A stretch of 50,286 nt of DNA. It comes from Thermoproteota archaeon. GTDB taxonomy: Archaea; Thermoproteota; Methanomethylicia; Methanomethylicales; Methanomethylicaceae. Shown piece after piece: positions 10,205-37,067 of the stretch (within the stretch, counting starts at the first letter, position 1; every line of letters starts with the position of its first letter). The notes beneath the pieces were generated by a model. The model saw only the letters and a program-made list of their open reading frames with translations, had not been told where the DNA came from and ran no database searches. A program made the position numbers and the translations under genes. The DNA lies in NCBI GenBank assembly GCA_020832905.1, contig JAJHRG010000001.1:424617-474902 (forward strand). Reading direction: 5' to 3'.

Positions 10205-11173
10205 ATGAAAAAAAGTACAATTGTACTCTCTATTGTCCTGATAGTAATAATAGTCTCAGTAATTGGTATTTATATTTCACAAATATCAACTCCTAAGGTA
10301 AAAGTAAGAATTGGCTATTTAACAGGAGATTTACATCATTTAGCATTATTTGTTGCTATAGCAAATAATTACTTTGCAAATTATGGTATAGAATATGAAG
10401 TTTATGAATATATAAATGGACCTACATTAATGCAACATTTTCTTGCAGGAGAACTTGATTTTGGTTATGTTGGAACACCTCCAGCATTAATTGCAAGATC
10501 ACAAAGTATAGGTTCTCCTAATGCACCTATTGCTATTGCTTCTGCTAACTTAGAAGGATCTGCATTAGTTGTTAATCCTAATATAAAAAGTATATCAGAT
10601 TTAAATGGAAAGAAAATTGGAACACCAGGTACTGGTACTATACAAGATGTAATGTTATCAATATTTATTAGAAATAATAATTTAAATATTACAAAATATC
10701 CTATGACTGTACGTGATTTACCTTTAGCATTTGCTAGAGGAGAAATAGATGGTTTTATTGCATGGGAACCATATCCTTCAATTGCAATTTATCAATATAA
10801 TGCATCAATACTACTTACATCTAAAGATTTAATGCCAGATCATCAGTGTTGTTTATTAGTAGTTTCAGAAAAATTCTTAAATTCAAGACCAGATATTGTT
10901 GAAAAAATGGTTAAAATTCATATTACTGCAATAAACTTTATAAATAGTAATCCATTAAAAGCTAAGGAAATAGCTATTAATAAAACTGGTCTTCCTGAAA
11001 AAGTTATTGAATCTGCATTATCAAGAATAAAATACAATGCAACAATAAATACTGAAAGTGTAAAAACATTCCTAAAAGAATCAATATCTCTAGGTATTAT
11101 TAAGAATGTAGATCCAGAGAAAATAGATGAATTTTTAAAGGGCTTTATTTCAACTAAGTTTATTGGTGGCTAA
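10205..11173 (+). CDS. ABC importer substrate-binding protein (SsuA/TauA/NMT1-like)
   Basis: Extracytoplasmic solute-binding protein, 322 residues. A Lys-Lys start and hydrophobic segment (about residues 5-25) form an uncleaved anchor or signal; no lipobox cysteine is visible. The mature part has RIGYLTGDLHHLALFVA, then LAGELDFGYVGTPPALIA and GEIDGFIAWEPYPSIA, the hallmarks of nitrate/sulfonate/taurine/thiamine-precursor binders. I chose ATG 10205 over ATG 10190 because GGGGGGA lies between them as a ribosome-binding site. Ligand unknown; coenzyme M or another sulfonate is a hypothesis from the mcr neighbourhood. Confidence 0.88.
   Translation: MKKSTIVLSIVLIVIIVSVIGIYISQISTPKVKVRIGYLTGDLHHLALFVAIANNYFANYGIEYEVYEYINGPTLMQHFLAGELDFGYVGTPPALIARSQSIGSPNAPIAIASANLEGSALVVNPNIKSISDLNGKKIGTPGTGTIQDVMLSIFIRNNNLNITKYPMTVRDLPLAFARGEIDGFIAWEPYPSIAIYQYNASILLTSKDLMPDHQCCLLVVSEKFLNSRPDIVEKMVKIHITAINFINSNPLKAKEIAINKTGLPEKVIESALSRIKYNATINTESVKTFLKESISLGIIKNVDPEKIDEFLKGFISTKFIGG
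10214..10227. promoter_or_regulatory. 14-bp perfect palindrome, second operator-like site
   Basis: AGTACAATTGTACT is a perfect inverted repeat just inside the binding-protein gene. It shares 12 bases with the site at 10170-10181. The centres are 44 bases apart, about four helical turns, so dimers on both would face the same side of DNA. Confidence 0.55.
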
Positions 11174-11175
11174 TA

Positions 11176-11952
11176 TTGAAATATCATATTAATTATCTTT
11201 TTTCTTTTCTTTCTATTATTGTATTTCTTATATTGTGGCATTTATTTTCAATTATAATTAATATTCCTTATTTTCCCAGTCCAATATCAGTTATTAAAGC
11301 AATTTTAGAAATTGCATTGATTGGTGATGTTGATAAATATACATTAGCTCAACATATCTATGTAAGTGTAGAAAGAGTATTATTAGGATTTTCTATTGCT
11401 GCTATAACAGCAATTCCCTTAGGTTTAATTATTGGAATAAAACCTTTAATTAAAGACACTATTACACCAATTATTGAACCTATAAGATTTATTCCTCCAA
11501 TAGCTTGGATTCCTTTAGCAATAGTTTTACTAGTAGGTATTACAAGATATATCTTTATTATATGGGTTGGAGCTTTCTTTCCTATTTTATTAAATACTAT
11601 TGCAGGCATAAAAAGAACATCTAATATTTTAATTCAAATGGCAAAAAGCTTTGGTTCAAGTAGAAATCAAATAATATATAAAATTATTATTCCAAGTTCG
11701 CTTCCTGAAGTAATGACAGGTCTAAGAGTTGGACTTGGAGTAGGATGGATGTGTATTGTAGCAGCTGAAATGATAGGTGGAGAGCCTATAGGTCTTGGAA
11801 GACTTATAATAAAATATGCAGGATTACTTAGATTAGATGTAGTAATAGCTGGAATGATAGTTATAGGAATAATAGGTATGCTTATGAACTATATTATATT
11901 AGCAATAGAGAAAAGATTATTCAAATGGAGACAAGAAATTATTATAACATAG
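11176..11952 (+). CDS. ABC importer permease (SsuC/TauC-like)
   Basis: Integral membrane protein of 258 residues with about six hydrophobic segments. The coupling loop that meets the ATPase is visible as AKSFGSSRNQIIYKIIIPSS, a form of the EAA motif, followed by PEVMTGLRVGLGVGW. It is a BPD_transp_1-type subunit of the nitrate/sulfonate class. The TTG start at 11176 sits two bases after the upstream stop, behind GGTGGC. Confidence 0.9.
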   Translation: MKYHINYLFSFLSIIVFLILWHLFSIIINIPYFPSPISVIKAILEIALIGDVDKYTLAQHIYVSVERVLLGFSIAAITAIPLGLIIGIKPLIKDTITPIIEPIRFIPPIAWIPLAIVLLVGITRYIFIIWVGAFFPILLNTIAGIKRTSNILIQMAKSFGSSRNQIIYKIIIPSSLPEVMTGLRVGLGVGWMCIVAAEMIGGEPIGLGRLIIKYAGLLRLDVVIAGMIVIGIIGMLMNYIILAIEKRLFKWRQEIIIT

Positions 11953-15487: not shown

Positions 15488-17155
15488 ATGAGCGAAGAAA
15501 AAATGTTTCTAGAGGCTCTTAGGAGAAAGTTTAAGGAAGCTCCTACAGAAAAATATACCAAGTTTTACATATATGATGGTTGGAAACAATCAAAAAGAAA
15601 AAGAGAATTTGTAGAAATAGCTCAAAAGATTGCAAAAGAAAGAGGAATTCCATTTTATAATCCAGATTTACACTTAGGAGGAATTCCATTAGGTCAGAGA
15701 GTCTTAATGCCATATCGTCTTTCTGGAACAGATATTTATTGTGAAGGAGATGACTTACACTTTATTAATAATGCTGCTATGCAACAAATGTGGCATGATA
15801 TAAGACGTACAGTTATAGTTGGATTAGATGCTGCACATATGGTATTAACAAAACGTCTCGGAAAAGAAGTAACTCCTGAAACAATTAATCATTATTTAGA
15901 AGTACTAAATCATGCTCTTCCTGGTGCAGCTGTTGTTCAAGAGCATATGGTTGAAACTCATCCAGGACTTGTAGCTGATAGTTATGTAAAAGTATTTACT
16001 GGTGATGATGAACTTGCAGATGAAATTGATGATAGATTCTTAATTGATATTAATAAAGAATTTCCAAAGGAACATGCAGAACAATTAAAAGCAGCTATTG
16101 GTAAGCGATTATATCAAGTATGTCGTATGCCAACTATAGTTGCTATGACATGTGATGGAGCTACAATGTCTAGATGGGCAGCTATGCAAATTTCAATGTC
16201 AATGATAAATGCATATAAATTAATGGCAGGAGAAGCAGCTGTTGCTGAGTTTGCTTTTGCTGCAAAGCATGCAGAACTTATTGAAATGGGTACACTACTA
16301 CCATGGAGACGTGCAAGAGGTCCAAATGAACCTGGAGGAATTCCATTAGGATATATTGCAGATATATGTCAAGCTTCTAGAGTTAAACCAGATGATCCTG
16401 TTTGGGTAGCTCTTGAAGTAATTGCAATGGCTGCAGTACTTTATGATCAGTTCTGGTTTGGTAGTTATATGTCAGGAGGAGTAGGATTTACTCAGTATGC
16501 TACATGTACTTATACTGATAATATACTTGATGATTTCTGCTATTATGGTGCAGATTATGTTAAAAAGAAGTATGGAGGATTTGCAAAAGTAAAGCCAAGT
16601 TGGGATGTAATTAAGGATGTTGCAACTGAAGTAACACTATATGGATTAGAGCAATATGAAAAGTATCCAGCATTAATGGAAACTCACTTTGGAGGTTCTC
16701 AAAGAGCTGCGGTTGTTGCTGCAGCTGCTGGAGTTTCAGTAGCTTTAGCCACAGGTCATGCTACAGCTGGAGTTAATGGATGGTATTTAAGTCAATTACT
16801 TCATAAGGAATCAATGGGTAGATTAGGATTCTATGGTTATGATTGTCAAGATCAATGTGGTTCTGCAAATAGCTTCTCTTGGAGAAGTGATGAAGGCTTA
16901 ATATTTAATCTTAGAGGTGTAAACTATCCAAATTATGCAATGAATGTAGGACATCAATCAGCTTATGCTGGTATAATATCAGCAGCACATGGAGCAAGAG
17001 GAGATGCATGGACTACAAATCCATTAATAAAAGTTGCTTTTGCAGATAAAGATTTAAAATTTGATTTTACTCATCCAAGACTTTGCTTTGGAAAAGGAGC
17101 ACTCAGAGAATTCATGCCTGCTGGTGAAAGAGATCTAATTATACCACCTCACTAA
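15488..17155 (+). CDS. mcrA: Methyl-coenzyme M reductase, alpha subunit
   Basis: Catalytic alpha subunit, 555 residues, canonical methane type. Aligned by eye to the Methanothermobacter marburgensis enzyme: Gln151 is the F430 nickel ligand (147 there). Sites known to be modified in that enzyme are His261 (257), Arg275 (271), Gln405 (400), Gly450 (thioglycine, 445), Asp455 (450) and Cys457 (452). The signature [15 protein letters not shown] is intact, so this is not a divergent alkyl-CoM reductase. Oddity: position 453, Leu in the reference, is Cys, giving YDCQDQCG. The ATG follows GGAGAGGA. Confidence 0.99.
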
Positions 17156-19688: not shown

Positions 19689-21287
19689 TTACTTCATATT
19701 AGCTAATTCTTCTGGTAATAAATATTTTATTACATCTAATGTTGGACCTCTTGTAATTAATTTACCTTCTCTAAGTAATATTACTTCATCACAAAGTTTT
19801 GTTACAAAATCTAAATCATGAGAAACTATTATGAATGTTTGTTGCAATTCTCTTCTTGCATTTTTTATTGATTTTATTATATCTCTTTGAGTTAATAAAT
19901 CTATTGTACCTGATGGCTCATCAAGTATAACAATTAGAGGTTCTTTTATTAAGACTTGAGAAAGAGCTATTCTATGTCTTTCTCCTTCACTTAACTCATC
20001 AGGATATTTATCTAGTATTGCAATAGCATAATCTTCTTTAAATCCTACTGCTTTTAATGTTGAAATTACTTTAAATCTTGCAAATTCATCAGGTAATTCT
20101 AATCCTATAGCATCAGTTAAATTCTCTAATATTGTTCTATATGGATATAGTGAATATTCTTGATGTAATATTCCTATATATCTAGTAGCTCTTCCTCTTC
20201 CTGTTGGTCCTGGTTCTGACATATCTACCCATTCATCACCTATTTTAATTAATACTTTTCCTGATGTTGGATTTGTTATTCCTGCTATAATTCTTGATAA
20301 TGTTGTTTTTCCAGCACCACTTACTCCAATAATTCCAAATATCTCTCCTTTTTTTACCTCAAAGGAAATTCCATCTAATGCTTTTACAATACCTCTATCT
20401 ATAGAAAAGAAATATTTTCTTACATTTTCTACCTTCAATATTATTTCTTCTATTTTTTTAACTTCTTCATATTCTTCAGCTTCTTCTCTTATGAATATAT
20501 TTATGATTTCCTTAGGATTACCTATAGCTTCAATTTTTCCTTCATTTAATAATATTGCTTTTTCACATAATATCTCTATTACTTGAGGTATGTGAGATGT
20601 TACTAATATTGTAAGATTATTCTTTCTTGTTTCTTCACTAAGTACATTACTTATAAGTTTTGTATTAATAGGATCTAATGTTCCTGTAGGCTCATCTGCA
20701 AGTAATAATATTGGCTTAGTTGCTAATAATCTTGCTAAAACTACTCTTTGTTTTTCTCCTCCACTTAAATCTCTTGCTATATGAATTATTCTATGTGAAA
20801 GACCAAATTTATTTATAATTTCTATAGCTTCTTTATTAATATCTACTTCATTTTTTTGTATAGATTTTGAAAGAGCTTCTATTATATTTTCATATACTGT
20901 TAAATTACCATAAAGACCAAATGTTCTTTGAAACATCATAGCTACTCTATTCTTAATCTTTTTAGTTATTCCATTATCCTTCCAAAAATCTACTTCTATA
21001 AGTTCTAATTTACTACTACATAAAGGACATGGAGTATTTACATTACTTGGCTTATCTACATATCCACATGATTTACAATATGAAATTCTATATATCACTC
21101 TTCCAGAAGTTGGTTTATACTCAGGTATTCCTTTTAATATTGATAAAAGTACACTTTTCCCTGAACCACTTTTTCCTAATATTCCTATTTTATCTCCTTC
21201 GTTTATAGTTAATGAAATATCTTTTAATACGTATTTTCCATTAAATTTTTTAGAAATATTTTCTAAGATTACAAAAGTTTCTCTCAT
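19689..21287 (-). CDS. atwA: MCR activation component A2, tandem ABC ATPase with zinc-ribbon insert
   Basis: Soluble protein with two ABC domains and no membrane part. Component A2 supplies ATP-dependent force in activating MCR to the Ni(I) state. First domain: Walker [10 protein letters not shown]-loop [11 protein letters not shown], signature LSGGEKQ, Walker [13 protein letters not shown]. Second domain: [28 protein letters not shown]. Between Walker A and the Q-loop of domain 1 sits a four-cysteine insert (C71, C74, C87, C90), as I recall for canonical A2. It is the last gene of mmp15-ycaO-tfuA-atwA, sharing one base with tfuA. Confidence 0.92.
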
Positions 21288-21937
21288 TACAACACCTCAA
21301 TGATTTCTTTAATTTTCTTTAGCACCTCTATTGCATCTTCACGTTTTTGATCTATTCTTTCTAATTTTATAATCTCAAATATTTCTTTTGCTCTTTTTAT
21401 GCCCAATTCAGGTATACATCTTTGTATAATTCTATTATAATTTCTTAAATAAAATGGCACTTCTTTAGCAATTCTTAATATTATCTTAGCTTCTTCTTCA
21501 CTTATTTTTGATTTATTTAATAAATAATCTAGGGTTGCTCTTATATTGACTAAAGCCTCAGAAATAGGTTGATATGTTACAGGATGATATGCTACTGCAA
21601 CTTCATCATCTGCATTTATTCTTCCTTCTTTATACCATTTATATATCTTACCAATACCTATCATTCCATAATTATCTAATTCACATGCTCTTAATGCTCC
21701 TATACTTGCTCCACCTACTACTATTACTCCTCTATCAATAGCACTCATAATTTCTCTAGGAGTAACTGTTGTTCTATGATAGAATACTCCATCAATTAAT
21801 CCTATTATTTTAGCTCCATCTTCTATTGCTTTTAGTACATCTCCTCTTCCAGCAGGAGGTCTATAATCAGCTATTGGTAATATTTTTAATGCTTCTTCTT
21901 TAGATAAACTTGGACCTAAAAAAACTATAACCTTCAT
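21287..21937 (-). CDS. tfuA: TfuA-like protein, partner of YcaO in McrA thioamidation
   Basis: 216 residues. It opens with VIVFLGPSLSKEEA and contains DYRPPAGRGDVLKAIEDG, GLIDGVFYHR and VVGGASIGALRACEL, all TfuA hallmarks. With YcaO it converts the McrA active-site glycine (Gly450 here) to thioglycine, probably by helping deliver sulfide. It overlaps ycaO by four bases and atwA by one, so translation is coupled along the operon. Confidence 0.93.
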   Translation of the reverse strand: MKVIVFLGPSLSKEEALKILPIADYRPPAGRGDVLKAIEDGAKIIGLIDGVFYHRTTVTPREIMSAIDRGVIVVGGASIGALRACELDNYGMIGIGKIYKWYKEGRINADDEVAVAYHPVTYQPISEALVNIRATLDYLLNKSKISEEEAKIILRIAKEVPFYLRNYNRIIQRCIPELGIKRAKEIFEIIKLERIDQKREDAIEVLKKIKEIIEVL

Positions 21938-23127
21938 AATTTTCCCTTAATACATCTTTTCCCTATTCTATCTTTATCTATAGCATAAACTTCTAATCCT
22001 GGTACTATTACACGAACTGTAGGAACATTAATTTCCTCTTTAGTTAGATTTACTACTATTACTTCATCTATTCCTATTGCTTTTAATCTATTGATAATAT
22101 ATTTAATATCACTTAAAAAATCATCATTATTAATGGAAGTAATTTCACTTAATTTTATACTTTCTTTAGATTTTTCAAACCATTTTTTATTTAATCTTTT
22201 CATTCTATCATATCCAATAATTCTTGCAAATGCTGCTTTATATGTATCTTCTCTTACTCCATGTATTGTTACTAATCTACTTTGTGCTGCTTCTGTTAAT
22301 GCTCTAATTAATGCAATTTCAGGAACTAAATGACTTCCAATACCAAGGGAAAGTAAAGCAGGATCTTTTGTAAGTTCATCATCTAATGCAACTCCTATTG
22401 TTGGTATTCCTATATCTGATGTAATATCTTTTATATAAACTTCAATAGAAGCTTTTTCAAATTTATTAATAATATTACTTATTATTCCATTTGAATCTAC
22501 ATAAACATCTCTTCCCTTTGTAATACCCGCTTCATATAATGACCATGCATCTCTCTCTATTACTTCTAATAAACCATGAACTATTGCTTCTTCTATTACA
22601 TTACCAGAAGCTAAACCATTAGTATTTGTTCTAAATAATTGATTCTTTCTTTTATAGGGATGAAAAACTGCTTCTGCAGGAACTAATATATTACAACTAT
22701 TCATAAGTGAAAAACCAAATACCCATTCTATTTCTTCATCATGAGAATAATATACAAATGGAGGTAATATTAATTTTCTTGGATCTAATACTTTATATTT
22801 TTCTGATAAAGAATTATAACTTCCTCTTATTATCATTTTATAATCTGGCTCAGCAGAATATCTTTCTATTCCTTCCATTATTGCTGATACTTCAGCAGCT
22901 TCTGGTGTTATTCCCTTACCACTATATACAGATACAGCACCTTCAGCTGCTTTTGGTCTTATTGTTGAAAAAATAGGTAGTCCTATTCTATCTAATCCTG
23001 TAATATCTGCTATTCTTGTTATTCCTACTTTATGATAAATCTTTCTTAAATATTCTAATGTCTCTTCTATTTTCTTAGCTCTATGTGTTCCTTCTTTATA
23101 TTCTTTCTTTATAGGTCTTAATATCAT
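21934..23127 (-). CDS. ycaO: YcaO thioamidation enzyme (methanogenesis marker protein 1)
   Basis: 397 residues. YcaO enzymes activate a backbone amide with ATP; in methanogens this one installs the McrA thioglycine. Family motifs visible are [36 protein letters not shown] and [10 protein letters not shown], which hold the Glu-rich Mg-ATP site. The C-terminus lacks the Pro-rich tail of azoline-forming YcaOs. It is coupled by four-base overlaps to mmp15 upstream and tfuA downstream. Confidence 0.95.
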
Positions 23128-24374
23128 TGTTCTTTTTCCTCAAGCTCCTTTACACCTGATACCATTAATGCTGCTCCTACTGCTCCTATTAAGTTAGGCT
23201 TTGGAGGAACTATTACTTCAACATTTAATATATCAGACATTGCTTTAACAAGTCCTTTTATTAAGGCCGTTGAACCTACTTCTATTATTGGATATCTTAT
23301 ATCAATTTCTTGTAATTGTTGCTCAAATACTTGTTCAGCTACACTATGACATGCTGCAGCAGCAACATCTTCTATTTTAGCTCCAGCAGCTAATGCTGCT
23401 ACTAAATCTTGAAGACCAAATACTATACAATATGCATTCATTAATATATTTTTAGGATCTCCTTTTAAGGCCAATTCTCCAAATTCTTCTAAACTAACTC
23501 CAAGTCTTCTAGCACTTGTCTCTAAAAATCTACCAGAAGCTCCTGCACAAACACCTCCAACTGTAAAGCTATCAGGAATACTATCATAAAGTGTTACAGC
23601 CTTATTATCCATTCCTCCTATATCTATTACAGTAGCATCTCCTTTCTGTTTATTAGCTAAAAATAAAGCTCCTTTTGAACATGTAGAAACTTCTTCCATT
23701 GATAATTGTGCATTATAGTATTCTTTTAATATTCTTCTTCCATAACCAGTTACTCCTATACCTTCTAGTTTATCAATAGTAACATTTGCTTCTTGAAGTG
23801 CTATTTCAAGTGCTTTTTTTCCACTTTCTAGTACACTTGTTGTTGGAATCCAACCTGTACCAATTATTTCATTATCCCTCATAACAACTGCTTTTGTAGT
23901 TGTTGAACCTGAATCTATTCCTGCAGTTAAACCTTCTTGTTTTGTACGTGCAAACAATGGCTTTTTACTTACTATATTAACAAGAGCTTCTAGTCTAAGT
24001 AATAATGCTCCTGCTTTTGTTCTTTCAGTAAATGAATATGTTACAACTGGAATTTTGCTTTTGCTCTGAATATATCTTCTTATGATACTTCTTGTAAGAG
24101 CACCTTCTGCACATCTAAAACATGTTGCCAATAATACACCATCAACTTCTACTCTTCCTTCTACAATTGCTTTTGCTCTTGCCATCATTACCTTCAATCC
24201 ATTACTTACTGCATGAAATCCTATTTCTTCTTCTGCTGTTTTTATATCTGAAATATCAATTTCAGGTATTATTATTTTAGCACCAACAAGCTCTGCAGCT
24301 TTTTCAATTTCTTTTTGTATTCCACTATATTCAGTTCCACATGATATTTGAGCTATTCTTATTTTTCTATTCAT
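23124..24374 (-). CDS. mmp15: Methanogenesis marker protein 15, ASKHA activase-like
   Basis: 416 residues from ATG 24374, which has GTGAT seven bases upstream; an in-frame GTG at 24386 forms part of that site. The N-terminal ~140 residues are specific to Mmp15 and include a Cys pair in ATCFRCAEG. The rest is an ASKHA ATPase like the 2-hydroxyglutaryl-CoA dehydratase activator: [13 protein letters not shown], then [12 protein letters not shown]. Both cysteines that bind the bridging [4Fe-4S] cluster in those dimers are kept, in [11 protein letters not shown] and AYCIVFG. Role unproven; the operon points to McrA maturation or activation. Confidence 0.88.
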
Positions 24375-24425
24375 ATTAGTTATCACTTTTTATTAAAATA
24401 ATACTTAATAATAGTTCTAATTTCA

Positions 24426-28682: not shown

Positions 28683-30578
28683 TTATCTTTTTTTATATTT
28701 CCTAACTACTTTAGGTGCCTTTATACTAGCAACAACTTCAGGAAAGCTTTCTAAGTCACTATTTGGCATATACATTGCATTAATATATTCTTCTTCAAAA
28801 ATAGGCTCAGCAGCTAATTCTACATATTTCATTTTTTTTACAACTTCCTCAGCTTCTTTTCTATAATCTATTGATTTTAAGCATAATCTAGCACCTGAAC
28901 CTGCAGTATTTCCTAAGAAGGAAATTTTTGAAATTGGTAATTCTGGTATCATACCTATTAATCTTGCACTAGAAGGATCAATATAACTTCCAAAAGCACC
29001 AGCTATTATTATTTCAGAAAGTTCTTCTTTTTTAAAACCAGCTTTTCTCATTAAAGTCATATATCCTGCATACATTGCTGCTTTTGCTTTTTGAATTTCT
29101 CTTATATCATCTTGAGTTATAACAATATCTTCTTCTTTATTTGCAGTTTCTTCTTTAAATGCTATGATAAATTCTTTACCATTTTCACCTTCACGTATTC
29201 TTTTATGATTTTGTAAAATAATTCTTCCACTTGTATCGATTACTCCAGTTCTTAACATTTCTGCAATAGCATCTATTATACCAGAACCACAAATTCCTCT
29301 TGGTTTTTCATTATCTATAGTTACATATTCAACATCAAAATTTTCCTTTATTCTTACTCTTTCTATTGCACCACTTGCAGCTCTCATTCCAAATTTTATA
29401 TGTGCACCTTCAAAAGCTGGACCAGAAGCTGTTGAACAACACCATAATCCATATTTATTTCCTAAAATTACTTCTGTATTTGTACCTACATCCATAAGTA
29501 AAGTAAGTTTCTCTTTTTCATGAATTCTTGATGCTAAAATATCAGCTATAGCATCTGCTCCTACAAATCCAGCTACATTTGGTAATGTATAAATACCTCC
29601 TATTGGATTTATATTAACTCCAATATTTTTAGCTCTTGTATAATATCCTTTACCTATTACAGGTGCATATGGTGATAGACCTAACCATTTTACATTTAAA
29701 CCAAGGAATAAGTGATGCATTGCTGTATTTCCTACAACAACAACTTCATAAATATTATTCCTCATAATATTTGTTTCTCTAATTCCTTTTTCTATTAATG
29801 AATTAATTCCATCTATTATTGTTTTTTGAATTTCTCTAAGTGCATCTTCACTTTGTGAAGCATATTGTATTCTTGAAATTACATCTTCTCCATATTTTAT
29901 TTGTGGATTCATTATTCCATCAGAGAATATTACAGTTCCATCATTTAAATCTACAATAAATAATGCAAGTTTTGTTGTACCAATATCTATAGCAACTCCA
30001 TAGCACTTATCTACTGTATTACCAGCTTCTATATCTATTATTTCATTACCTAAAATAGTAAAGGTAACTTTCCAATTACTTTCTCTTAGAATTTTTGGCA
30101 TTTTTCTTGTAACTTCATAATTTATTGTAATATTTCCTATATTTAATTTTGATAAAATATCAAGTACTCTAACATCATCTCCTCTTGGATCATTTAATGA
30201 TGGTGGTGTTATTTCTAAATAAATTTTTTTAACATTTGGATTAAGTCTTGATGGAGGCTCAACTCCCATTATTACTAATCTCTGTCTTCCTGTTCTACTT
30301 TGCTCTGGTATGTTTACTACAATGTTATCATGAACTTTAAGTTGACAAGCTAAGCGAAATCCTTTTGATATTTTTTCACCTAATCTTCGTTTCTCATGAT
30401 CAGTAGGTGGATTAGTTCTTCCTTCAATTACTTCTACTATACACTTACCACATAATCCTTTTCCACCACATATAGCAGAAATATCTATATTACCTTTTAT
30501 TGCAGCTGATAATACTGTATTTCCTTCTTCAATTGTAATTCTTTTTCCATCAGGAAGAAATTTTACTTCATATTCCAT
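28683..30578 (-). CDS. RACo-like reductive activator: [2Fe-2S] ferredoxin plus ASKHA ATPase
   Basis: 631 residues. The ferredoxin domain (about 1-95) has C37, C43, C46 and C78 in the C-x5-C-x2-C...C pattern of plant-type [2Fe-2S] sites. A linker follows, then an ASKHA ATPase with GVAIDIGTTKLALFIVDL near 190, VVVGNTAMHH and LLMDVGTNTEVILG. This is the architecture of RACo, which uses ATP to reduce inactive Co(II) corrinoid proteins. The C-terminal 2x[4Fe-4S] domain of archaeal RamA is absent. Its start overlaps the A2-like ATPase by 11 bases at the end of the mmp3-6-17-7 operon. Target could be a corrinoid protein or MCR itself. Confidence 0.88.
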   Translation of the reverse strand: MEYEVKFLPDGKRITIEEGNTVLSAAIKGNIDISAICGGKGLCGKCIVEVIEGRTNPPTDHEKRRLGEKISKGFRLACQLKVHDNIVVNIPEQSRTGRQRLVIMGVEPPSRLNPNVKKIYLEITPPSLNDPRGDDVRVLDILSKLNIGNITINYEVTRKMPKILRESNWKVTFTILGNEIIDIEAGNTVDKCYGVAIDIGTTKLALFIVDLNDGTVIFSDGIMNPQIKYGEDVISRIQYASQSEDALREIQKTIIDGINSLIEKGIRETNIMRNNIYEVVVVGNTAMHHLFLGLNVKWLGLSPYAPVIGKGYYTRAKNIGVNINPIGGIYTLPNVAGFVGADAIADILASRIHEKEKLTLLMDVGTNTEVILGNKYGLWCCSTASGPAFEGAHIKFGMRAASGAIERVRIKENFDVEYVTIDNEKPRGICGSGIIDAIAEMLRTGVIDTSGRIILQNHKRIREGENGKEFIIAFKEETANKEEDIVITQDDIREIQKAKAAMYAGYMTLMRKAGFKKEELSEIIIAGAFGSYIDPSSARLIGMIPELPISKISFLGNTAGSGARLCLKSIDYRKEAEEVVKKMKYVELAAEPIFEEEYINAMYMPNSDLESFPEVVASIKAPKVVRKYKKR

Positions 30579-32241
30579 TATTACTCATCTCTAAATATTT
30601 CTTTATTACATCTTCTGGTTTTCCATCCATTACTACTTTTCCATTTATTATTAATATGCATCTATCTGCTACTTCTTCTACAAAATCTAATTGATGACTT
30701 ACTAGTATAATAGCTGGTTTAAAAATTTCTTTTATTTTCTTTAATGTATTTGCAATTTTTCTTAATGTTAATGGATCTAAATCACCAAAAGGCTCATCTA
30801 ATAATAATACTTTAGGCTTAGAAATTAAAGAAAGAAGAAGTGCAATTCTTATTTTTTCTCCTCCAGATAATTCACATACTTTTCTATTAAGAATTTCACT
30901 TTTCATATTAACCCAATTTAGCATTTTTTCTGCAATTTCTCTAGTTTTTTCAGGATCTTTTTCTTTGAAAATTCTTTTCAAATCTTCTTTACTTAATCCT
31001 AATTCACTTAATTTTATCTCCATATCCATATCAGGAAGTTCTGCAATTCTTCCTAAGATATCAATTGTTACTTCACTTAAACCTTCTTTTTCTGCTCTTT
31101 TTATTGCTTCTTCTAAAAGTCTATAATCTTTAATTCCAAGACGAGCTGCAAATAATTCCAATATAGTAGCCCAATATGGTAAATCAAATTCTTGATGCAT
31201 CATACTTATTTTTCTTCTTGCTCTTAAACTCTTCTTTCCAAATTTGCTAATTTCAACCCATTCATTTTTATGAAGTACTAAAATACTTCCACTACTTGGT
31301 ATTTCAAGACCAGCTAACATTCTTAAAAGAACTGTTTTTCCTGCAGCAGAAGGTCCAATAATTGCTGTAATTTCTCCTGTTCTAAAACTTAATGTTGTAT
31401 TATTAAGTTCAAAAACTTTTCCATAAGGTATTAACTCATATACTTTACTTACATTCTCCATTCTGAGAATTTCTTTTCCTTTTATTTCCTTTTTTTCTAA
31501 TGGCTTTTCCATTTTTGAAAGAAAAAAATCTACAACATCTTTTGGCTTTCCATCCATTATTATTCTTCCCTTTTCAATAAGTAAAACTCTATCTGCAAGA
31601 TTCTTATGAATATCAGGATTATGAGAAACAAATAATATACTAATATTATAAGCTTCTCTTACTCTTTTAAGAACATCAATTAAATCATTTCTACTATTAT
31701 GATCTGTCATTGTTCCTGGCTCATCTAATAACAAAAGCTTAGGTTTTCTTGCAATTTGTCTTGCAATAATTAATCTTTGCTTTTCTCCTCCACTTAATAT
31801 CATAGCCCATAATTCTGCTTTTTTATCAAGTCCTATAACTTTTAAAATTTCCAATGCTTTCCTTTTATATTCTTCATATTCTCCTTCACATTCTGGAATA
31901 GTTTCTTCTCTTATATCCTGATATCTAAGTGCTCTTATAACATTATTTACTACAGAATCTGACCATAATCCAAAACTTCTTTGAAGTTGAATTGCAGTTC
32001 TTTTTTGTAATTCTAAAAACTTTTCTTTAGGTGAATTTGCTTCTACTTCTAAATCCTCAAATATTATTCTACCACTATTAAAACTTTCAACTCCTCTTAT
32101 TATTCTTAATAGTGTAGTTTTTCCAGCACCACTTTCTCCAAGTATTCCTAAGATTTCTCCTTTTTTTAATTCAAAAGATACTGAATCAAGTGCTTTAATT
32201 CCATTTGGAAATATCTTTACAATATTTTCACATGTTAACAT
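30568..32241 (-). CDS. Second A2-like tandem ABC ATPase, no zinc insert
   Basis: 557 residues, two ABC domains, no membrane segments. Domain 1: Walker A GESGAGKTT, Q-loop QLQRSFGLW, signature LSGGEKQ, Walker B LLLLDEPGTMTD. Domain 2: GPSAAGKTV, LSGGEKI, VLLLDEPFGDLD. The QRxFGL Q-loop is shared with the canonical A2 at 19689-21287, but the four-cysteine insert is missing. A longer helical insert lies in domain 2 (about residues 370-430). It starts nine bases after mmp7 and overlaps the RACo-like gene by 11 bases. Its place in the activation operon suggests a role in MCR activation. Confidence 0.86.
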   Translation of the reverse strand: MLTCENIVKIFPNGIKALDSVSFELKKGEILGILGESGAGKTTLLRIIRGVESFNSGRIIFEDLEVEANSPKEKFLELQKRTAIQLQRSFGLWSDSVVNNVIRALRYQDIREETIPECEGEYEEYKRKALEILKVIGLDKKAELWAMILSGGEKQRLIIARQIARKPKLLLLDEPGTMTDHNSRNDLIDVLKRVREAYNISILFVSHNPDIHKNLADRVLLIEKGRIIMDGKPKDVVDFFLSKMEKPLEKKEIKGKEILRMENVSKVYELIPYGKVFELNNTTLSFRTGEITAIIGPSAAGKTVLLRMLAGLEIPSSGSILVLHKNEWVEISKFGKKSLRARRKISMMHQEFDLPYWATILELFAARLGIKDYRLLEEAIKRAEKEGLSEVTIDILGRIAELPDMDMEIKLSELGLSKEDLKRIFKEKDPEKTREIAEKMLNWVNMKSEILNRKVCELSGGEKIRIALLLSLISKPKVLLLDEPFGDLDPLTLRKIANTLKKIKEIFKPAIILVSHQLDFVEEVADRCILIINGKVVMDGKPEDVIKKYLEMSNNGI

Positions 32242-32250
32242 TTTAACACC

Positions 32251-33159
32251 CTACGTAAAGAAAGACTCTGGTAAAATTTTAATGAGTATATAATCTCTCA
32301 TTTTTGATTTAATTATATTAGCAATCTCTATAAGCTTTTTTCCTTCAATTTCTATAGATGCTATTTTGTTCTTGTACTCATCATATGGAAGTTTTACTCT
32401 TACACCATCTATTTTTAATGTTACAGGATTAGGAGAAAGTACTTCATTAACTTCAGGTAATTGTCTTTCTATTTCTTTTTTTACTAATGCAGGTTCAACT
32501 ATCAATGGATCTAAATCCATTTCTCTTCTTCTTTTTTCTGCAATTTTTCCTAAAATTTCAGAAATTTCATTAAGCTTTTTTATCATATCCATAGTTCTAG
32601 CTCTTTCATTAAATCTTCCAATACCTCCAATATACCCACTAACATTTGGAAGAATTAAATTATCAGGTTTACCTGTTACTACAACAGGAATTGAAATTTC
32701 ACTAAATAGCTTACTTTTAAATTTTGAAATACAATATTCAAAATTTCCTAATACAAATAATGCAATATCATGTTCTTCTATTAATTGCTTTTCTTCTTTT
32801 GTTATATGTGCTATTTTCTGACCAACCCCTCTTGCTAATCCTATGATATTTGTCTTTGCACCATGTCTTCTTAAATTCTCTGCAATATCACATACTGGAT
32901 GTGGTAAATGATGTCTTGATAAACTAGGTGAAACAACAGCTATTTCAGTACCAATAAGTGGAGCTTCTCTTATCTTTCCTTTAAGTTCTATTACTAACTT
33001 ATTTAAATCATTAAATTCTTCTTCAGGAATTGCTAAATACATTATTACATCTAATCCTATTATATTCTTTTGTATTAAGTATCCTCCAATATCTTCTACA
33101 AATTCTATTAATTTTTCATGTTTATATGTTCCCCCTTCAAATACAATATACTTTAACAT
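32251..33159 (-). CDS. mmp7: Methanogenesis marker protein 7 (MCR activation complex)
   Basis: 302 residues. Mmp7 co-purifies with McrC, Mmp3, Mmp6, Mmp17 and A2 in MCR activation. The core SPSLSRHHLPHPVCDI followed by ENLRRHGAKTNIIGLARG is clearly homologous to the McrC segment SPSKRHITRPICEI, so the two are paralogues. Other cysteines are few (one in FEYCIS), making Cys in PVCDI a candidate metal ligand. The start shares one base with the mmp17 stop. Confidence 0.9.
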   Translation of the reverse strand: MLKYIVFEGGTYKHEKLIEFVEDIGGYLIQKNIIGLDVIMYLAIPEEEFNDLNKLVIELKGKIREAPLIGTEIAVVSPSLSRHHLPHPVCDIAENLRRHGAKTNIIGLARGVGQKIAHITKEEKQLIEEHDIALFVLGNFEYCISKFKSKLFSEISIPVVVTGKPDNLILPNVSGYIGGIGRFNERARTMDMIKKLNEISEILGKIAEKRRREMDLDPLIVEPALVKKEIERQLPEVNEVLSPNPVTLKIDGVRVKLPYDEYKNKIASIEIEGKKLIEIANIIKSKMRDYILIKILPESFFT

Positions 33160-33710
33160 TATTTCTCTACCTTAATCTCATGAGCTTTTTTAATCCATTC
33201 TTCTTTTATTGGATCTTCTGAAGCAATAACTGTAAGTATATCTTTTTCTTTTATAGTGTGTCTAATTCTAAAACCCTCAGGAAGTACTCTATTTACTAAT
33301 TCTATTATTCTTTCAGAAATATCTACTTCTTTTTCTCTTATCTTAATTTCCTTAATTTCATTAATATCAATATTTCTTAATAATATTTCAAATCTACCAA
33401 TCTGTTCAACTTTATCTCTTCCAAATTTACTCCATAAAACTCTTAAAGCATCTGTTACATCAATTTCATTTTCTAATATTATTTTTATAGTATTTGCTCT
33501 TTCTTCAAATCTTGCTAAATCCTTAAGTAAATTTCTTCTTTTTATTTCCTTGTAACTTACTTTCATTATGCATAATGGAATTTCTAAATTCATATATAGA
33601 TATACCCATTCTATACTTCCTCCTAAAATTAAATCTTCAATACTTTGTTTTATAATCTTAATATAAGCTTCTCTTCCTTTTTCATCATTTGTATCTACTA
33701 TAATCTTAAT
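33159..33710 (-). CDS. mmp17: Methanogenesis marker protein 17, with ATT start
   Basis: Member of the MCR activation complex. The first ATG (33593) would give only 144 residues, but the frame stays open for 39 more codons with no ATG, GTG or TTG. It reaches ATT at 33710, seven bases after GGAGGAG. The extra residues, KIIVDTNDEKGREAYIKII and so on, agree with what I recall of other Mmp17 N-termini, and 183 residues fits the family. The ATT overlaps the mmp6 stop (ATTAA), implying coupling. The next gene, mmp7, shares one base. Confidence 0.82.
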   Translation of the reverse strand: MKIIVDTNDEKGREAYIKIIKQSIEDLILGGSIEWVYLYMNLEIPLCIMKVSYKEIKRRNLLKDLARFEERANTIKIILENEIDVTDALRVLWSKFGRDKVEQIGRFEILLRNIDINEIKEIKIREKEVDISERIIELVNRVLPEGFRIRHTIKEKDILTVIASEDPIKEEWIKKAHEIKVEK

Positions 33711-34116
33711 GTCTTATCTCCTCCTCTATTATTTTTTTAAGTACTTCAACATCAATCTTCTTCTTTGGTTTTTCTTCTACTGGTTTTTCTTCTTCTAATG
33801 CTTTTGCTACATTCCTTAATGCTTCTCTTTCAGTTCCAAGCATAAAAAAACCTGGTCTTGGTCCTCCACCTCTTTTTGCTCTACAAATACGTTCGTCTCC
33901 TATTCTATATCCTCTTATTTTAAAAAATATTCTATTTGGATCCATACTTTCTAATTCTTTTATAGCTTTTTTCAAATCTTCTTCTTCACCTTCAATTAAT
34001 AAACCATAACATGTTTCCTTATAATTAATTCCACTAATTAATGAAATCTTTTCTATTAACATTGAAGGTGTAAGACTTGAATCAGGAGAAAGCATTACAA
34101 CATATGTTTTTTTCAT
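33706..34116 (-). CDS. mmp6: Methanogenesis marker protein 6
   Basis: 136 residues, part of the purified MCR activation complex in known methanogens. RGYRIGDERICRAKRGGGPR followed by PGF is the family hallmark (near residues 71-93). The C-terminal ~30 residues are a charged Glu/Lys helix (EEEKPVEEKPKKK). Cys in ETCYG and in RICRA are the only cysteines seen. Its ATG shares one base with the mmp3 stop. Family call rests on remembered motifs. Confidence 0.8.
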   Translation of the reverse strand: MKKTYVVMLSPDSSLTPSMLIEKISLISGINYKETCYGLLIEGEEEDLKKAIKELESMDPNRIFFKIRGYRIGDERICRAKRGGGPRPGFFMLGTEREALRNVAKALEEEKPVEEKPKKKIDVEVLKKIIEEEIRH

Positions 34117-35606
34117 TAACTTTCCTCCATTATGTATATTTCATCTTCTAATTCACTTATTACATCTAATCCTTCTACTACTTCTCCTATTATATTTGTA
34201 CCACTAAAATCTTCTGCAGTTGGTCCAAATTTATTACTTTTTGTTAATCTTATTCCTATCATACCAGCAAATCTCTTTACAGAATTTGTTACACCGATAG
34301 CTCCTGGATTTACAATATCCTTTGGTATATTTTCTGGCAATAATGATCTTCCTAAGTCTTCATCACCTTTAAATAATATTACATCTTTTGTCTTAAAAAA
34401 TAATTTTAATACACCAATTTTTCTCAAATCAATTCCTGTAATTTTTTCAAAATATCTTACTGAATTAGGAGCTTTATCTCTATAAAGTTTTATTTTAAGA
34501 ATTTTCTTTTTCTCTAATCCCTTACATATAACTTCTCCTTTTTTGTATATTTCAATTGTAGTAGATGGATTACATTCTATAATAATACTATCATCATCTT
34601 TATTACCATCTCTTATATGTCTTATATTTAATTTCTCTAATAGCAATGATGCTTCTTTTTGTGTTTTTCCAAGCAAATCTAATTTCTCAGGTTTTATTGA
34701 AATTCTTATTCTATCCCCTTCTGAAGCAATTTCTGCTAATTCTAATCCTCTTACTACTCTTCCTACTATATTATGTTCACTAGATATTGGAGCTTTTTGA
34801 GTATAAATATAAATAGCTCCAGTATTATCTCCACTATTTCTTACAGAAACTACACCTTTTTCTCTTACTCCAATTTTTTCTTTTTTTAAATTAAATAATT
34901 TCCTATCATAAGCTATAAATTTACTTGTTTTCCTAGTGACAATAAAACCATTAGCTAAACTATTATATACATGTTCACTACTTATTGGAGAATCATAATT
35001 AAGAAGTATTTCTATTTTTGTAAGAATCTCATCACCTTCACTTAGCTCATAATTATCATCTGCCTTAATTAAATAACCTGATTTAATTCTTTTTTCAATA
35101 ACAGGTGAAATTTTTTCAATTTTATCTCCTATTTTTAAAATATCAAGTAAATATTTTCCATAAACTATTCTTCCCATGATATCTCCTTCACTTGGAGGAA
35201 AATATAGGCCACTATGATTTCTTTTACTAAATATTAAATGTGTTTGCTCATTACTCATACCTGATATACTTATTGTTACATCATATTTTTTTAATTCTAC
35301 ATCCTTTATTACTGGCTTAAAATCTGTATAAACAGGTCCAAAAGCAATAGCATCATTACTTACCCATCTTACATTACAATTTTCAAAATTTTTGTAAATT
35401 TCTCTCCATTTATCTAAAGTTCTATTATTTTCCCAAATAATAATCATTTTACCTTTATTAGTAATAATTTCATAAAGATTAGTAATTATATTTTCAAAAT
35501 CTATTTTTCTTTTTACTACTGATATAAATCCATTACTTTTTATAATATCTCCTAATTTCAAACCTTTTTCTACTTCTACCTCATTACCATCAATTCTTAT
35601 TTTCAT
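34116..35606 (-). CDS. mmp3: Methanogenesis marker protein 3
   Basis: 496 residues, first gene of the leftward activation operon. The N-terminal ~60 residues look like a ubiquitin-like/ThiS-type domain (IRIDGNEVEVEKGLKLGDII). Two cyclophilin-like barrels follow, with GLYFPPSEGDIMGRIVYGK and, near the C-terminus, IGIRLTKSNKFGPTAEDFSG and GEVVEGLDVISELED. Mmp3 is part of the MCR activation complex; isomerase activity is not established. GGTGA precedes ATG 35606. It is divergent from mcrD. Confidence 0.88.
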   Translation of the reverse strand: MKIRIDGNEVEVEKGLKLGDIIKSNGFISVVKRKIDFENIITNLYEIITNKGKMIIIWENNRTLDKWREIYKNFENCNVRWVSNDAIAFGPVYTDFKPVIKDVELKKYDVTISISGMSNEQTHLIFSKRNHSGLYFPPSEGDIMGRIVYGKYLLDILKIGDKIEKISPVIEKRIKSGYLIKADDNYELSEGDEILTKIEILLNYDSPISSEHVYNSLANGFIVTRKTSKFIAYDRKLFNLKKEKIGVREKGVVSVRNSGDNTGAIYIYTQKAPISSEHNIVGRVVRGLELAEIASEGDRIRISIKPEKLDLLGKTQKEASLLLEKLNIRHIRDGNKDDDSIIIECNPSTTIEIYKKGEVICKGLEKKKILKIKLYRDKAPNSVRYFEKITGIDLRKIGVLKLFFKTKDVILFKGDEDLGRSLLPENIPKDIVNPGAIGVTNSVKRFAGMIGIRLTKSNKFGPTAEDFSGTNIIGEVVEGLDVISELEDEIYIMEES

Positions 35607-35663
35607 TTTTCACCAAGTAAATTTATTTAAGTTTTTACCAATATTTATAAATTGGTGCTATAT
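35607..35663. promoter_or_regulatory. Divergent promoter between the two MCR-activation operons
   Basis: 57 bases separate mmp3 and mcrD. ATTTATAAAT (35643-35652) is a TATA box well placed for mmp3 on the minus strand. AAATTTATTTAAG (35619-35631) is suitably placed for mcrD on the plus strand. The two lie within each other's transcription start areas, so firing in one direction may limit the other. Confidence 0.5.
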
Positions 35664-36017
35664 TTGAATTATGAAATACCACCTGAAATTGAAATAATGC
35701 CAAGAAGACTTATGCCAAAAAGTAAAGCTGAAGAATTTGTTAATTTAATTAAGAATACTGGATTAGTTAAAGAAGTATTAATATATAAGCAAAAATATTC
35801 AGATGGAAAAAGCTATTTAGCAAATCGTTTTATCTTAATTATTAATATTAATTCTCCGGAAGAAGTTATAGAAAAGATAAAGCCTATATGTAATCAAATG
35901 ATGCCATATGGATATGATATAAGAATTGGTAGATTTATTAAATTAAGACCTACAGTTTCAGATTACATTAGAGGTGATTACTACTGGATAAAATCATCGG
36001 AAGAAGTGCACAAATAA
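35664..36017 (+). CDS. mcrD: McrD, MCR operon protein D
   Basis: About 117 residues. McrD binds MCR during assembly and is encoded inside the mcr operon in most methanogens; here it leads a separate operon with mcrC and mmp5. The conserved C-terminal block MPYGYDIRIGRF followed by LRPTVSDYIRGDYYW is diagnostic. TTG 35664 is preferred, six bases after GGTG; TTG 35652 or GTG 35655 would place the start in that site. It overlaps mcrC by 34 bases. Confidence 0.87.
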   Translation: MNYEIPPEIEIMPRRLMPKSKAEEFVNLIKNTGLVKEVLIYKQKYSDGKSYLANRFILIININSPEEVIEKIKPICNQMMPYGYDIRIGRFIKLRPTVSDYIRGDYYWIKSSEEVHK

Positions 36018-36628
36018 TTGATTGTAGAGAAACTCAAGGTATTGGAGAAGGTGGAGGTTTAGCTCAAAGAGGTACAATATCAGAAACTGAGCATTTTGAT
36101 GTTATTGCAATAGCAATGTCTCCATCTAAAAGACATATTACTAGACCAATATGTGAAATTACATATGGTCTAAGAGAACAGGGAATTAGAACTAGTGTAA
36201 TTGTATTGGAATCTGGATCAGGAGTACCTCCAGATTCTCCATATGGAGGAGCTCCTGGAGGTACTATGGCTGGAATAAATGAAAAAGAAATTCTTCAAAT
36301 AAGAAGATTTAAATTAGCTTTACTTCATCTTGGTGGAATTTTAGGTCATATTGTTTATAAAGCAAAAACATTTCTTCGTTATGTTGATATACCTGCAATA
36401 ATAGTTTGTGAAGCACCAGCTGATTATGAAGATTTTGCTAAAGTTGGAATAATTACAAGATTAGTTCGTCCTCCTCCAGATAAAGTTGAATGTTTTGGCA
36501 TCATAGTAGATATAGTAACTGGTGTAATAAGAGGAGTAAGTATTCCAAGAGATAAATTAAATGAAATAATCATGAAAGTAAAATATTGGTTAAATGAAAT
36601 AGAGAAGAAAGGAAAATTGGTGTATTAA
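35984..36628 (+). CDS. mcrC: McrC, MCR activation complex subunit, with CTG (or ATC) start
   Basis: About 214 residues. The first ATG (36116) would remove the conserved start of McrC. The open frame upstream encodes IIGRSAQIIDCRET then GIGEGGGLAQRGTISE, the McrC hallmark. No ATG, GTG or TTG occurs between the stop at 35975 and this block. CTG 35984 lies six bases after GGTGA and is the best start; ATC at 35993 or 35996 is possible. SPSKRHITRPICEI is shared with Mmp7. McrC recruits the ATP-dependent activation complex to MCR. It overlaps mcrD by 34 bases. Confidence 0.88.
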   Translation: MDKIIGRSAQIIDCRETQGIGEGGGLAQRGTISETEHFDVIAIAMSPSKRHITRPICEITYGLREQGIRTSVIVLESGSGVPPDSPYGGAPGGTMAGINEKEILQIRRFKLALLHLGGILGHIVYKAKTFLRYVDIPAIIVCEAPADYEDFAKVGIITRLVRPPPDKVECFGIIVDIVTGVIRGVSIPRDKLNEIIMKVKYWLNEIEKKGKLVY

Positions 36629-36629
36629 A

Positions 36630-37067
36630 ATGGCAAAAGTATTCATATTTCCACCAAATAGTATTATACTTTTTGATCTTGTAAGAAGATTTGGACATAT
36701 TCCACTAGGATTAGGAGAAGAAATTTCTAAAAATGTAAATAGACCTGAAATAGATTCTCCTCCTATGAATATTACTCCTGATTTTCCAAGAAGAGGCTTA
36801 AAATATGCTGCTATAGAAGTTCCATCTGGTGTAAGAGGTAGATTAGCACTAATAGGTCCATTAATTGAAGAAGCAGATGCTGCTATAATTATTGAAGATC
36901 CTGAAATTGGTTTTGGTTGTACAAGCTGTGCAAGAGCTAATGAATTTTTGATATATTTAGTAAAACAAAGAAAAATTCCTTACATAACTGTTCCATATCC
37001 TTCTTCTGAAGAAGAAGCAAGAATAATGGTTCAAAAAATAAAAAATTTTCTTTTATCCTTAAAATAG
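36630..37067 (+). CDS. mmp5: Methanogenesis marker protein 5
   Basis: 145 residues. FIFPPNSIILFDLVRRFGH, EIDSPPMNITPDFPRRGLKY and EVPSGVRGRLALIGPLIEEA are Mmp5 hallmarks. A Cys pair lies in FGCTSCARANEF (CxxC), a likely metal or redox site. It starts one base after mcrC and is the last gene of mcrD-mcrC-mmp5. Mmp5 is close to universal in organisms with MCR; its role is unknown. Confidence 0.9.
   Translation: MAKVFIFPPNSIILFDLVRRFGHIPLGLGEEISKNVNRPEIDSPPMNITPDFPRRGLKYAAIEVPSGVRGRLALIGPLIEEADAAIIIEDPEIGFGCTSCARANEFLIYLVKQRKIPYITVPYPSSEEEARIMVQKIKNFLLSLK

Follow-up and report, generated by a model that had tools for sequence, protein, structure and literature searches.

Methanogens depend on Ni(I) in cofactor F430 of methyl-coenzyme M reductase (MCR), and how the cell reaches this state is open: the purified activation complex is slow and relies on an artificial reductant. 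A 50,286-nucleotide stretch of a Thermoproteota archaeon of the family Methanomethylicaceae (contig JAJHRG010000001.1, positions 424,617–474,902; hereafter the window) gives this question a specific form. Its MCR-activation operon, mmp3-mmp6-mmp17-mmp7, continues into two further genes, an A2-like tandem ABC ATPase and, last, a RACo-type reductive activase of the kind that restores Co(I) in corrinoid proteins. Does this activase push electrons onto Ni-F430, or does it reactivate corrinoids next to the genes that reactivate nickel? A model that read the letters alone, without database searches (the sequence-only reading), had proposed the former, with the two genes as a dedicated electron-injection pair, and had offered the latter as an alternative. 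Our analysis supports the alternative best. The likeliest meaning of the locus is that two metal-reactivation systems are expressed together, with a further member of a known family in a new genomic setting, and not a new electron injector for Ni-F430.

The operon ends in a RACo-type activase

The last gene of the operon (28683–30578, minus strand) encodes 631 aa with four Pfam domains over their cut-offs: Fer2, RACo_linker (PF17650), Raco_middle (PF17651) and RACo_C_ter (PF14574). The closest solved structure by sequence is RACo 3zyy (E = 1.7e-137), and the RACo:CoFeSP complex 4c1n is also among the best matches. An AlphaFold2 model of the protein matches 3zyy and 4c1n as well; confidence in the modelled [2Fe-2S] domain is low. 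The cluster ligands C37, C43, C46 and C78 (C-x5-C-x2-C...C) are invariant in 18 operonic RACos. By these sequence features the gene product is a RACo-type [2Fe-2S]-ASKHA reductive activase, predicted to reduce Co(II) corrinoids at the expense of ATP. The claim that such a protein sits at the tail of an MCR-activation operon was thus borne out by Pfam, by the structure match and by NCBIfam.

The protein resembles RACo of Carboxydothermus hydrogenoformans (3ZYY, 4C1N; AcsV family) over its full length, in its four domains and in its [2Fe-2S] and ASKHA motifs, but is ~38–40% identical to it and is encoded among MCR-activation genes. It is not AcsV (533 bits to NF040756, cut-off 800), and, in contrast to the setting of AcsV-type RACo, the window genome has no corrinoid protein of carbon monoxide dehydrogenase/acetyl-CoA synthase (CODH/ACS), as judged from the absence of a CdhD match. 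Nor is it RamA, the methylamine corrinoid activase of Methanosarcina: it reaches 149 bits to TIGR04270 (cut-off 500), where a RamA-type relative scores 781. The two share a homologous ASKHA core, and the same class of client would be expected for both, but the window protein carries an N-terminal [2Fe-2S] domain that sets it apart from RamA.

We surveyed 40 genomes of the class Methanomethylicia. The operon lies on one contig in 22 of them, 21 from the window's family (the window included) and one from a sister family; in one further family genome it is broken across contigs and could not be assessed. The order mmp3-mmp6-mmp17-mmp7-A2-like-RACo is kept on one strand in 22/22, the A2-like gene and RACo always closing the operon and their ends usually overlapping, and the arrangement is therefore not due to chance. 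In the window the two reading frames share 11 bases, ATGGAATATGA, an overlap that the sequence-only reading had reported correctly and that we read directly from the sequence; the A2-like gene follows mmp7 after a gap of 9 bases. Named relatives with the operon are Methanomethylicus, Methanosuratincola and other Methanomethylicota metagenome-assembled genomes (MAGs), and in the nearest relative, WYZ-LMO11, RACo is 92% identical. Beyond the order, neither RACo nor the A2-like gene was found in the flanks of mmp7 at 21 loci from Hadesarchaea, Methanococcales, Alkanophagales, Methanofastidiosia and others (several on short contigs), and RACo was beside mmp7 in none of five Nezhaarchaeal-type genomes. 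Korarchaeal and Bathyarchaeal loci lay outside this comparison, as did the mmp7 neighbours of Methanomassiliicoccales, Methanosarcinales and methanogenic Archaeoglobi. Among 250 Thermoproteota genomes, mmp7 was found in this class only. We conclude that the operon is real, conserved and specific to Methanomethylicales.

RACo tracks corrinoid proteins and, outside the order, not MCR

In the class, 30 genomes carry a soluble B12-binding methyltransferase corrinoid protein, and each of them has RACo-family genes; the eight genomes without RACo all lack such a protein. The association is strong in the class (Fisher p = 5.9e-7) and holds outside the order (p = 0.002), whereas RACo and MCR are not associated outside the order (p = 1.0); these p values are descriptive and ignore shared ancestry. 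The sequence-only reading had named beforehand the tracking of mtaC/mtbC-type proteins, and not of mcr-activation genes, as the pattern that would speak against its injection module, and this is largely the pattern that we found. It had also asked whether genomes without corrinoid methyltransferases keep RACo beside mmp7: none was found, and the genomes with an operonic RACo all have at least one corrinoid protein.

The most informative genomes are the Nezhaarchaeal-type G034 and G035, two members of the class in which mmp7 has MCR-activation genes beside it but both RACo and any PF02607 corrinoid protein are missing; at 67 and 72% completeness these absences are uncertain, and no mcrA turned up in the fragmented G035. 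RACo was likewise not found in MCR-bearing M. jannaschii, our control, or in Methanothermococcus. With RACo missing from these two and from the two mmp7-bearing relatives, MCR as such does not require it.

Gene neighbourhoods outside the operon tell the same story. Fourteen of 17 non-operonic RACo loci adjoin corrinoid proteins, MtrH- or MtaA-type methyltransferases or CODH/ACS genes, and none of the 17 has mcr or mmp genes beside it. The methyl-reducing Methanofastidiosia and NM3 have RACo next to mtaA-type genes, and each of the seven RamA-type genes has mtaA/mtaB/mtaC or mttB-type genes as neighbours. Within the order, the operonic RACo is the only family member in seven genomes that are at least 90% complete and encode one to six corrinoid proteins each.

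The window genome has a single PF14574 (RACo-family) protein, no RamA and no other RACo. It has five corrinoid-protein matches, which stand beside MtmB-, MtaA-, URO-D- and MtrH-type methyltransferases; among the neighbours are two MtmB homologues at one locus, an MtaA/MtbA-type gene at another, a URO-D methyltransferase at a third, and MtrH- and MetE-type genes at a fourth. In culture, the related M. petrocarbonis lives by using H2 to reduce methanol and monomethylamine (PMC12244365). CdhD and MtrA had no match in the window genome, and we rejected both as clients in the order: CdhD is absent apart from one weak fragment match in a single genome (G018), and MtrA is absent except in one genome. 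The two MtmB homologues (contig C6, ~544–547 kb; L151:7707-9074 and L151:6344-7729; 388 and 356 bits to PF05369) lie beside a corrinoid protein and are open throughout with no in-frame UAG, and are thus apparently pyrrolysine-free.

A change of partner was sought as altered conserved residues in the operonic RACos, and no excess was found over 121 columns. Only 2/121 columns conserved in every other lineage have changed, the lowest fraction of all lineages, and there is therefore no sign of a partner switch. In trees, the operonic RACos are nested among methyltransferase-linked archaeal RACos. One tree joins them in a single group with weak support (67/20), and in a broader tree the RACo of the Nezhaarchaeal-type G036 falls among the operonic copies; a single origin is likely but not firm.

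The A2-like ATPase is a family of its own

The gene that overlaps RACo (30568–32241, minus strand; 557 aa) encodes, like A2/AtwA, a tandem ABC ATPase, with Walker A, signature and Walker B motifs in each of its two domains. Its best structural match, by an AlphaFold2 model, is A2 itself (8s7v_K, TM 0.67–0.71). It reaches 323 bits to the A2 model TIGR03269, however, below the cut-off of 517, whereas the true A2 (AtwA) of the window (19689–21287, minus strand), which has the four-Cys Zn loop, scores 754 bits and matches 8s7v_K with E = 5.7e-175. The Zn loop in the N-terminal half, described as conserved in the structure paper (PMC12176620), is present in 8/8 A2 and in 0/19 A2-like proteins by motif comparison. 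At the McrA-latch site, where A2 holds the unfolded McrA helix, the A2-like proteins have an insertion of ~30 aa that replaces the P-x-x-F contact with the McrA N-terminal helix; this motif is a weaker marker than the Zn loop, its F being leucine in A2 of the Nezhaarchaeal-type family f9. The "second A2 ATPase" of the sequence-only reading was right as to kinship, with the qualification that the protein is not A2 by the curated cut-off. A second A2-type ATPase per genome is not new in itself, since two to three AtwA copies were reported earlier in Methanothermobacter (PMC3087415).

Orthologues of the A2-like protein score 347–465 bits, and the next ABC ATPases in the same genomes at most about 154. 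They are present in Methanocaldococcus, two other Methanococci, two CSMAG genomes and Alkanophaga, and were not found in Methanofastidiosia, NM3, CSMAG_1224 and one Hadesarchaeon. RACo shows a nearly opposite pattern in these genomes, Alkanophaga having both: the A2-like gene occurs without RACo in Methanocaldococcus, Methanothermococcus, the CSMAG genomes and G034, and RACo without the A2-like gene in Methanofastidiosia and the NM3 lineage. Because the A2-like gene accompanies MCR in lineages that lack RACo, we treat it as a separate MCR-associated gene. On the sequence criteria above, it represents a distinct family related to A2; it is probably also an older associate of MCR in its own right.

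Four genomes of the Nezhaarchaeal-type family f9 have the A2-like gene next to mcrA on the opposite strand, with RACo elsewhere or absent. At loci L157, L158, L190 and L194 the A2-like gene occupies the opposite strand, with mcrD and mcrA on either side, and the true A2 adjoins mmp7; the mcrA of these loci is the gene matching window positions 15488–17155, where the mcrA search match falls. In the Euryarchaeota MAG CSMAG_2293, the A2-like gene (L221:9021-10718) is followed by an unannotated gene of 366 aa (10758–11858) whose start resembles, by eye, an ASKHA-type nucleotide-binding fold.

Corrinoid reactivation or electron supply to MCR

In corrinoid methyl transfer, oxidation removes Co(I) and the protein-bound Co(II)/Co(I) couple lies near −530 mV, which is why an ATP-dependent reactivator is required; in a characterised O-demethylase system, activating enzyme and ATP raise the potential of the couple to about −250 mV (PMC6739815). 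We consider it probable that the operon co-expresses a general corrinoid reactivator with the MCR activation machine and that RACo still serves corrinoid proteins. The [2Fe-2S] domain of RACo would take up an electron, and ATP in its ASKHA domain, acting as in characterised activases, would drive the re-reduction of accidentally oxidised Co(II) in soluble MtmC/MtbC/MtaC-type proteins, from which coenzyme M would receive its methyl groups in this methyl-reducing methanogen. RACo probably became the last gene of the operon in the ancestor of Methanomethylicales, and a joint demand for Co(I) in methyl transfer and Ni(I) in MCR could explain its membership: the cell would make its two repair systems for "super-reduced" metals together. 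The A2-like ATPase would have a role of its own and would not be an obligate partner of RACo.

Several observations pull the other way. The linkage of RACo to MCR-activation genes is strict (22/22) although corrinoid-methyltransferase operons were available as sites, and no corrinoid protein gene adjoins the operonic RACo. Ten assessable genomes keep the operonic RACo despite a RamA-type or second RACo gene, and the exact client of RACo cannot be read from sequence. One genome, G010, has three activases: the operonic RACo, a RACo beside an MtbC-like corrinoid protein and a RamA-type gene by mtaA/mtaB/mtaC (contigs C25, C18 and C14; loci L042, L033 and L066).

These points bear on the possibility that RACo, exclusively or besides its corrinoid clients, is the ATP-driven electron donor of the MCR activation complex in Methanomethylicales, which we regard as doubtful. 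All five components of the published complex, McrC-Mmp7-Mmp17-Mmp3-A2 (8S7V, 9H1L; PMC12176620), are encoded in the window, but neither RACo nor the A2-like ATPase is among them. That complex activates MCR poorly and slowly and depends on Ti(III) citrate; the authors anticipate additional factors and liken the process to ATP-driven corrinoid reduction (PMC12176620). Because of this need for an artificial reductant, this expectation and the strictness of the operon, a direct role in MCR activation keeps some weight, and if true it would supply the kind of physiological donor that is absent from the published complex.

Such a role could take two forms. In a dual role, the operonic RACo would serve corrinoid proteins and also donate electrons to the MCR activation complex. 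This would account both for the strict operon and for the co-occurrence with corrinoid proteins, but nothing speaks positively for the MCR half, and MCR works elsewhere without RACo; we judge it unlikely. As a dedicated injector, RACo would dock on Mmp7/Mmp17 near the distal L-cluster (FeSIII), be charged by ferredoxin and drive electrons with ATP to Ni(II)-F430. The conservation of the operon through the order, the dependence of the published complex on Ti(III) citrate with more factors expected, and the retention of RACo in genomes with RamA-type activases would all fit. However, RACo is not beside mmp7 in any other MCR archaea examined, whereas a subunit of the MCR activation complex would be expected to keep its linkage to mmp7 across MCR archaea; it is absent from M. 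jannaschii, Methanothermococcus and the Nezhaarchaeal-type G034 and G035; and its conserved residues show none of the excess change that a switch of partner would predict. A dedicated injector would also leave the window genome with no known corrinoid activase. Moreover, Mmp15, an ASKHA activase of the acyl-CoA-dehydratase/benzoyl-CoA-reductase activator type, is encoded in the window (23124–24386, minus strand; TIGR03286, 653 bits), and its gene accompanies mmp7 across lineages of MCR archaea, which makes it a more general and more economical candidate than RACo for electron delivery to MCR. We therefore hold a dedicated injector to be unlikely as well.

The pair proposed by the sequence-only reading is not favoured, since each gene occurs without the other and RACo tracks corrinoid proteins. 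Overlapping frames and constant company in the order suggest that RACo and the A2-like ATPase are obligate partners in a single two-ATPase module, irrespective of target; with each found alone in other lineages, we rejected this module as very improbable. Mmp10, the B12-radical-SAM enzyme that methylates an McrA arginine, is a corrinoid enzyme of MCR maturation, and RACo in an MCR operon could re-reduce its cobalamin, but no match over the cut-off of the Mmp10 model exists anywhere in the class, the window genome included, and M. jannaschii matches that model yet has no RACo, so we rejected this client as having next to no probability.

Corrinoid reactivation, the ordinary explanation, identifies RACo, and not RamA, as the likely corrinoid activase of these methanogens, and sets the A2-like ATPase apart as a family of its own associated with MCR. 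A Co(I)-restoring activase as the fixed last gene of MCR activation across an order is a specific and testable link between the two hardest reductions of methylotrophic methanogenesis, and a cultured relative is available for testing this Co(I)/Ni(I) link.

Other genes and gene starts in the window

The remaining operon genes, all on the minus strand, score above their curated NCBIfam cut-offs: mmp7 (32251–33159; TIGR03274, 411 bits), mmp17 (33159–33710; TIGR03291), mmp6 (33706–34116; TIGR03272, 136 bits) and mmp3 (34116–35606; TIGR03268, 486 bits). Aligned with M. maripaludis Mmp7, the window protein keeps the L-cluster ligand positions H84, C90 and C143. The first description, with no gap above nine bases throughout mmp3-6-17-7, holds only if mmp17 starts at 33710; if the first ATG (33593) is taken as the start, 112 bases separate mmp17 from mmp6. 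The frame is open up to 33710, and a start there gives 183 aa, the full family length, so a non-canonical ATT at this position is the probable start. It would overlap the mmp6 stop by five bases (33706–33710), and ATG-based annotation loses ~39 residues.

On the plus strand, divergent from the operon, lie mcrD (35652–36017; partial match to TIGR03260 and PF02505), mcrC (35978–36628; TIGR03264) and mmp5 (DUF2112; 36630–37067; PF09885). The mcrC frame is open upstream (35978–36115) to a TTG inside mcrD; this probable start restores an N-terminal Cys, the expected L-cluster ligand. A second minus-strand cluster (19689–24386) holds A2, tfuA, mmp1 (YcaO) and mmp15, whose ends overlap or abut, and is kept in WYZ-LMO11.

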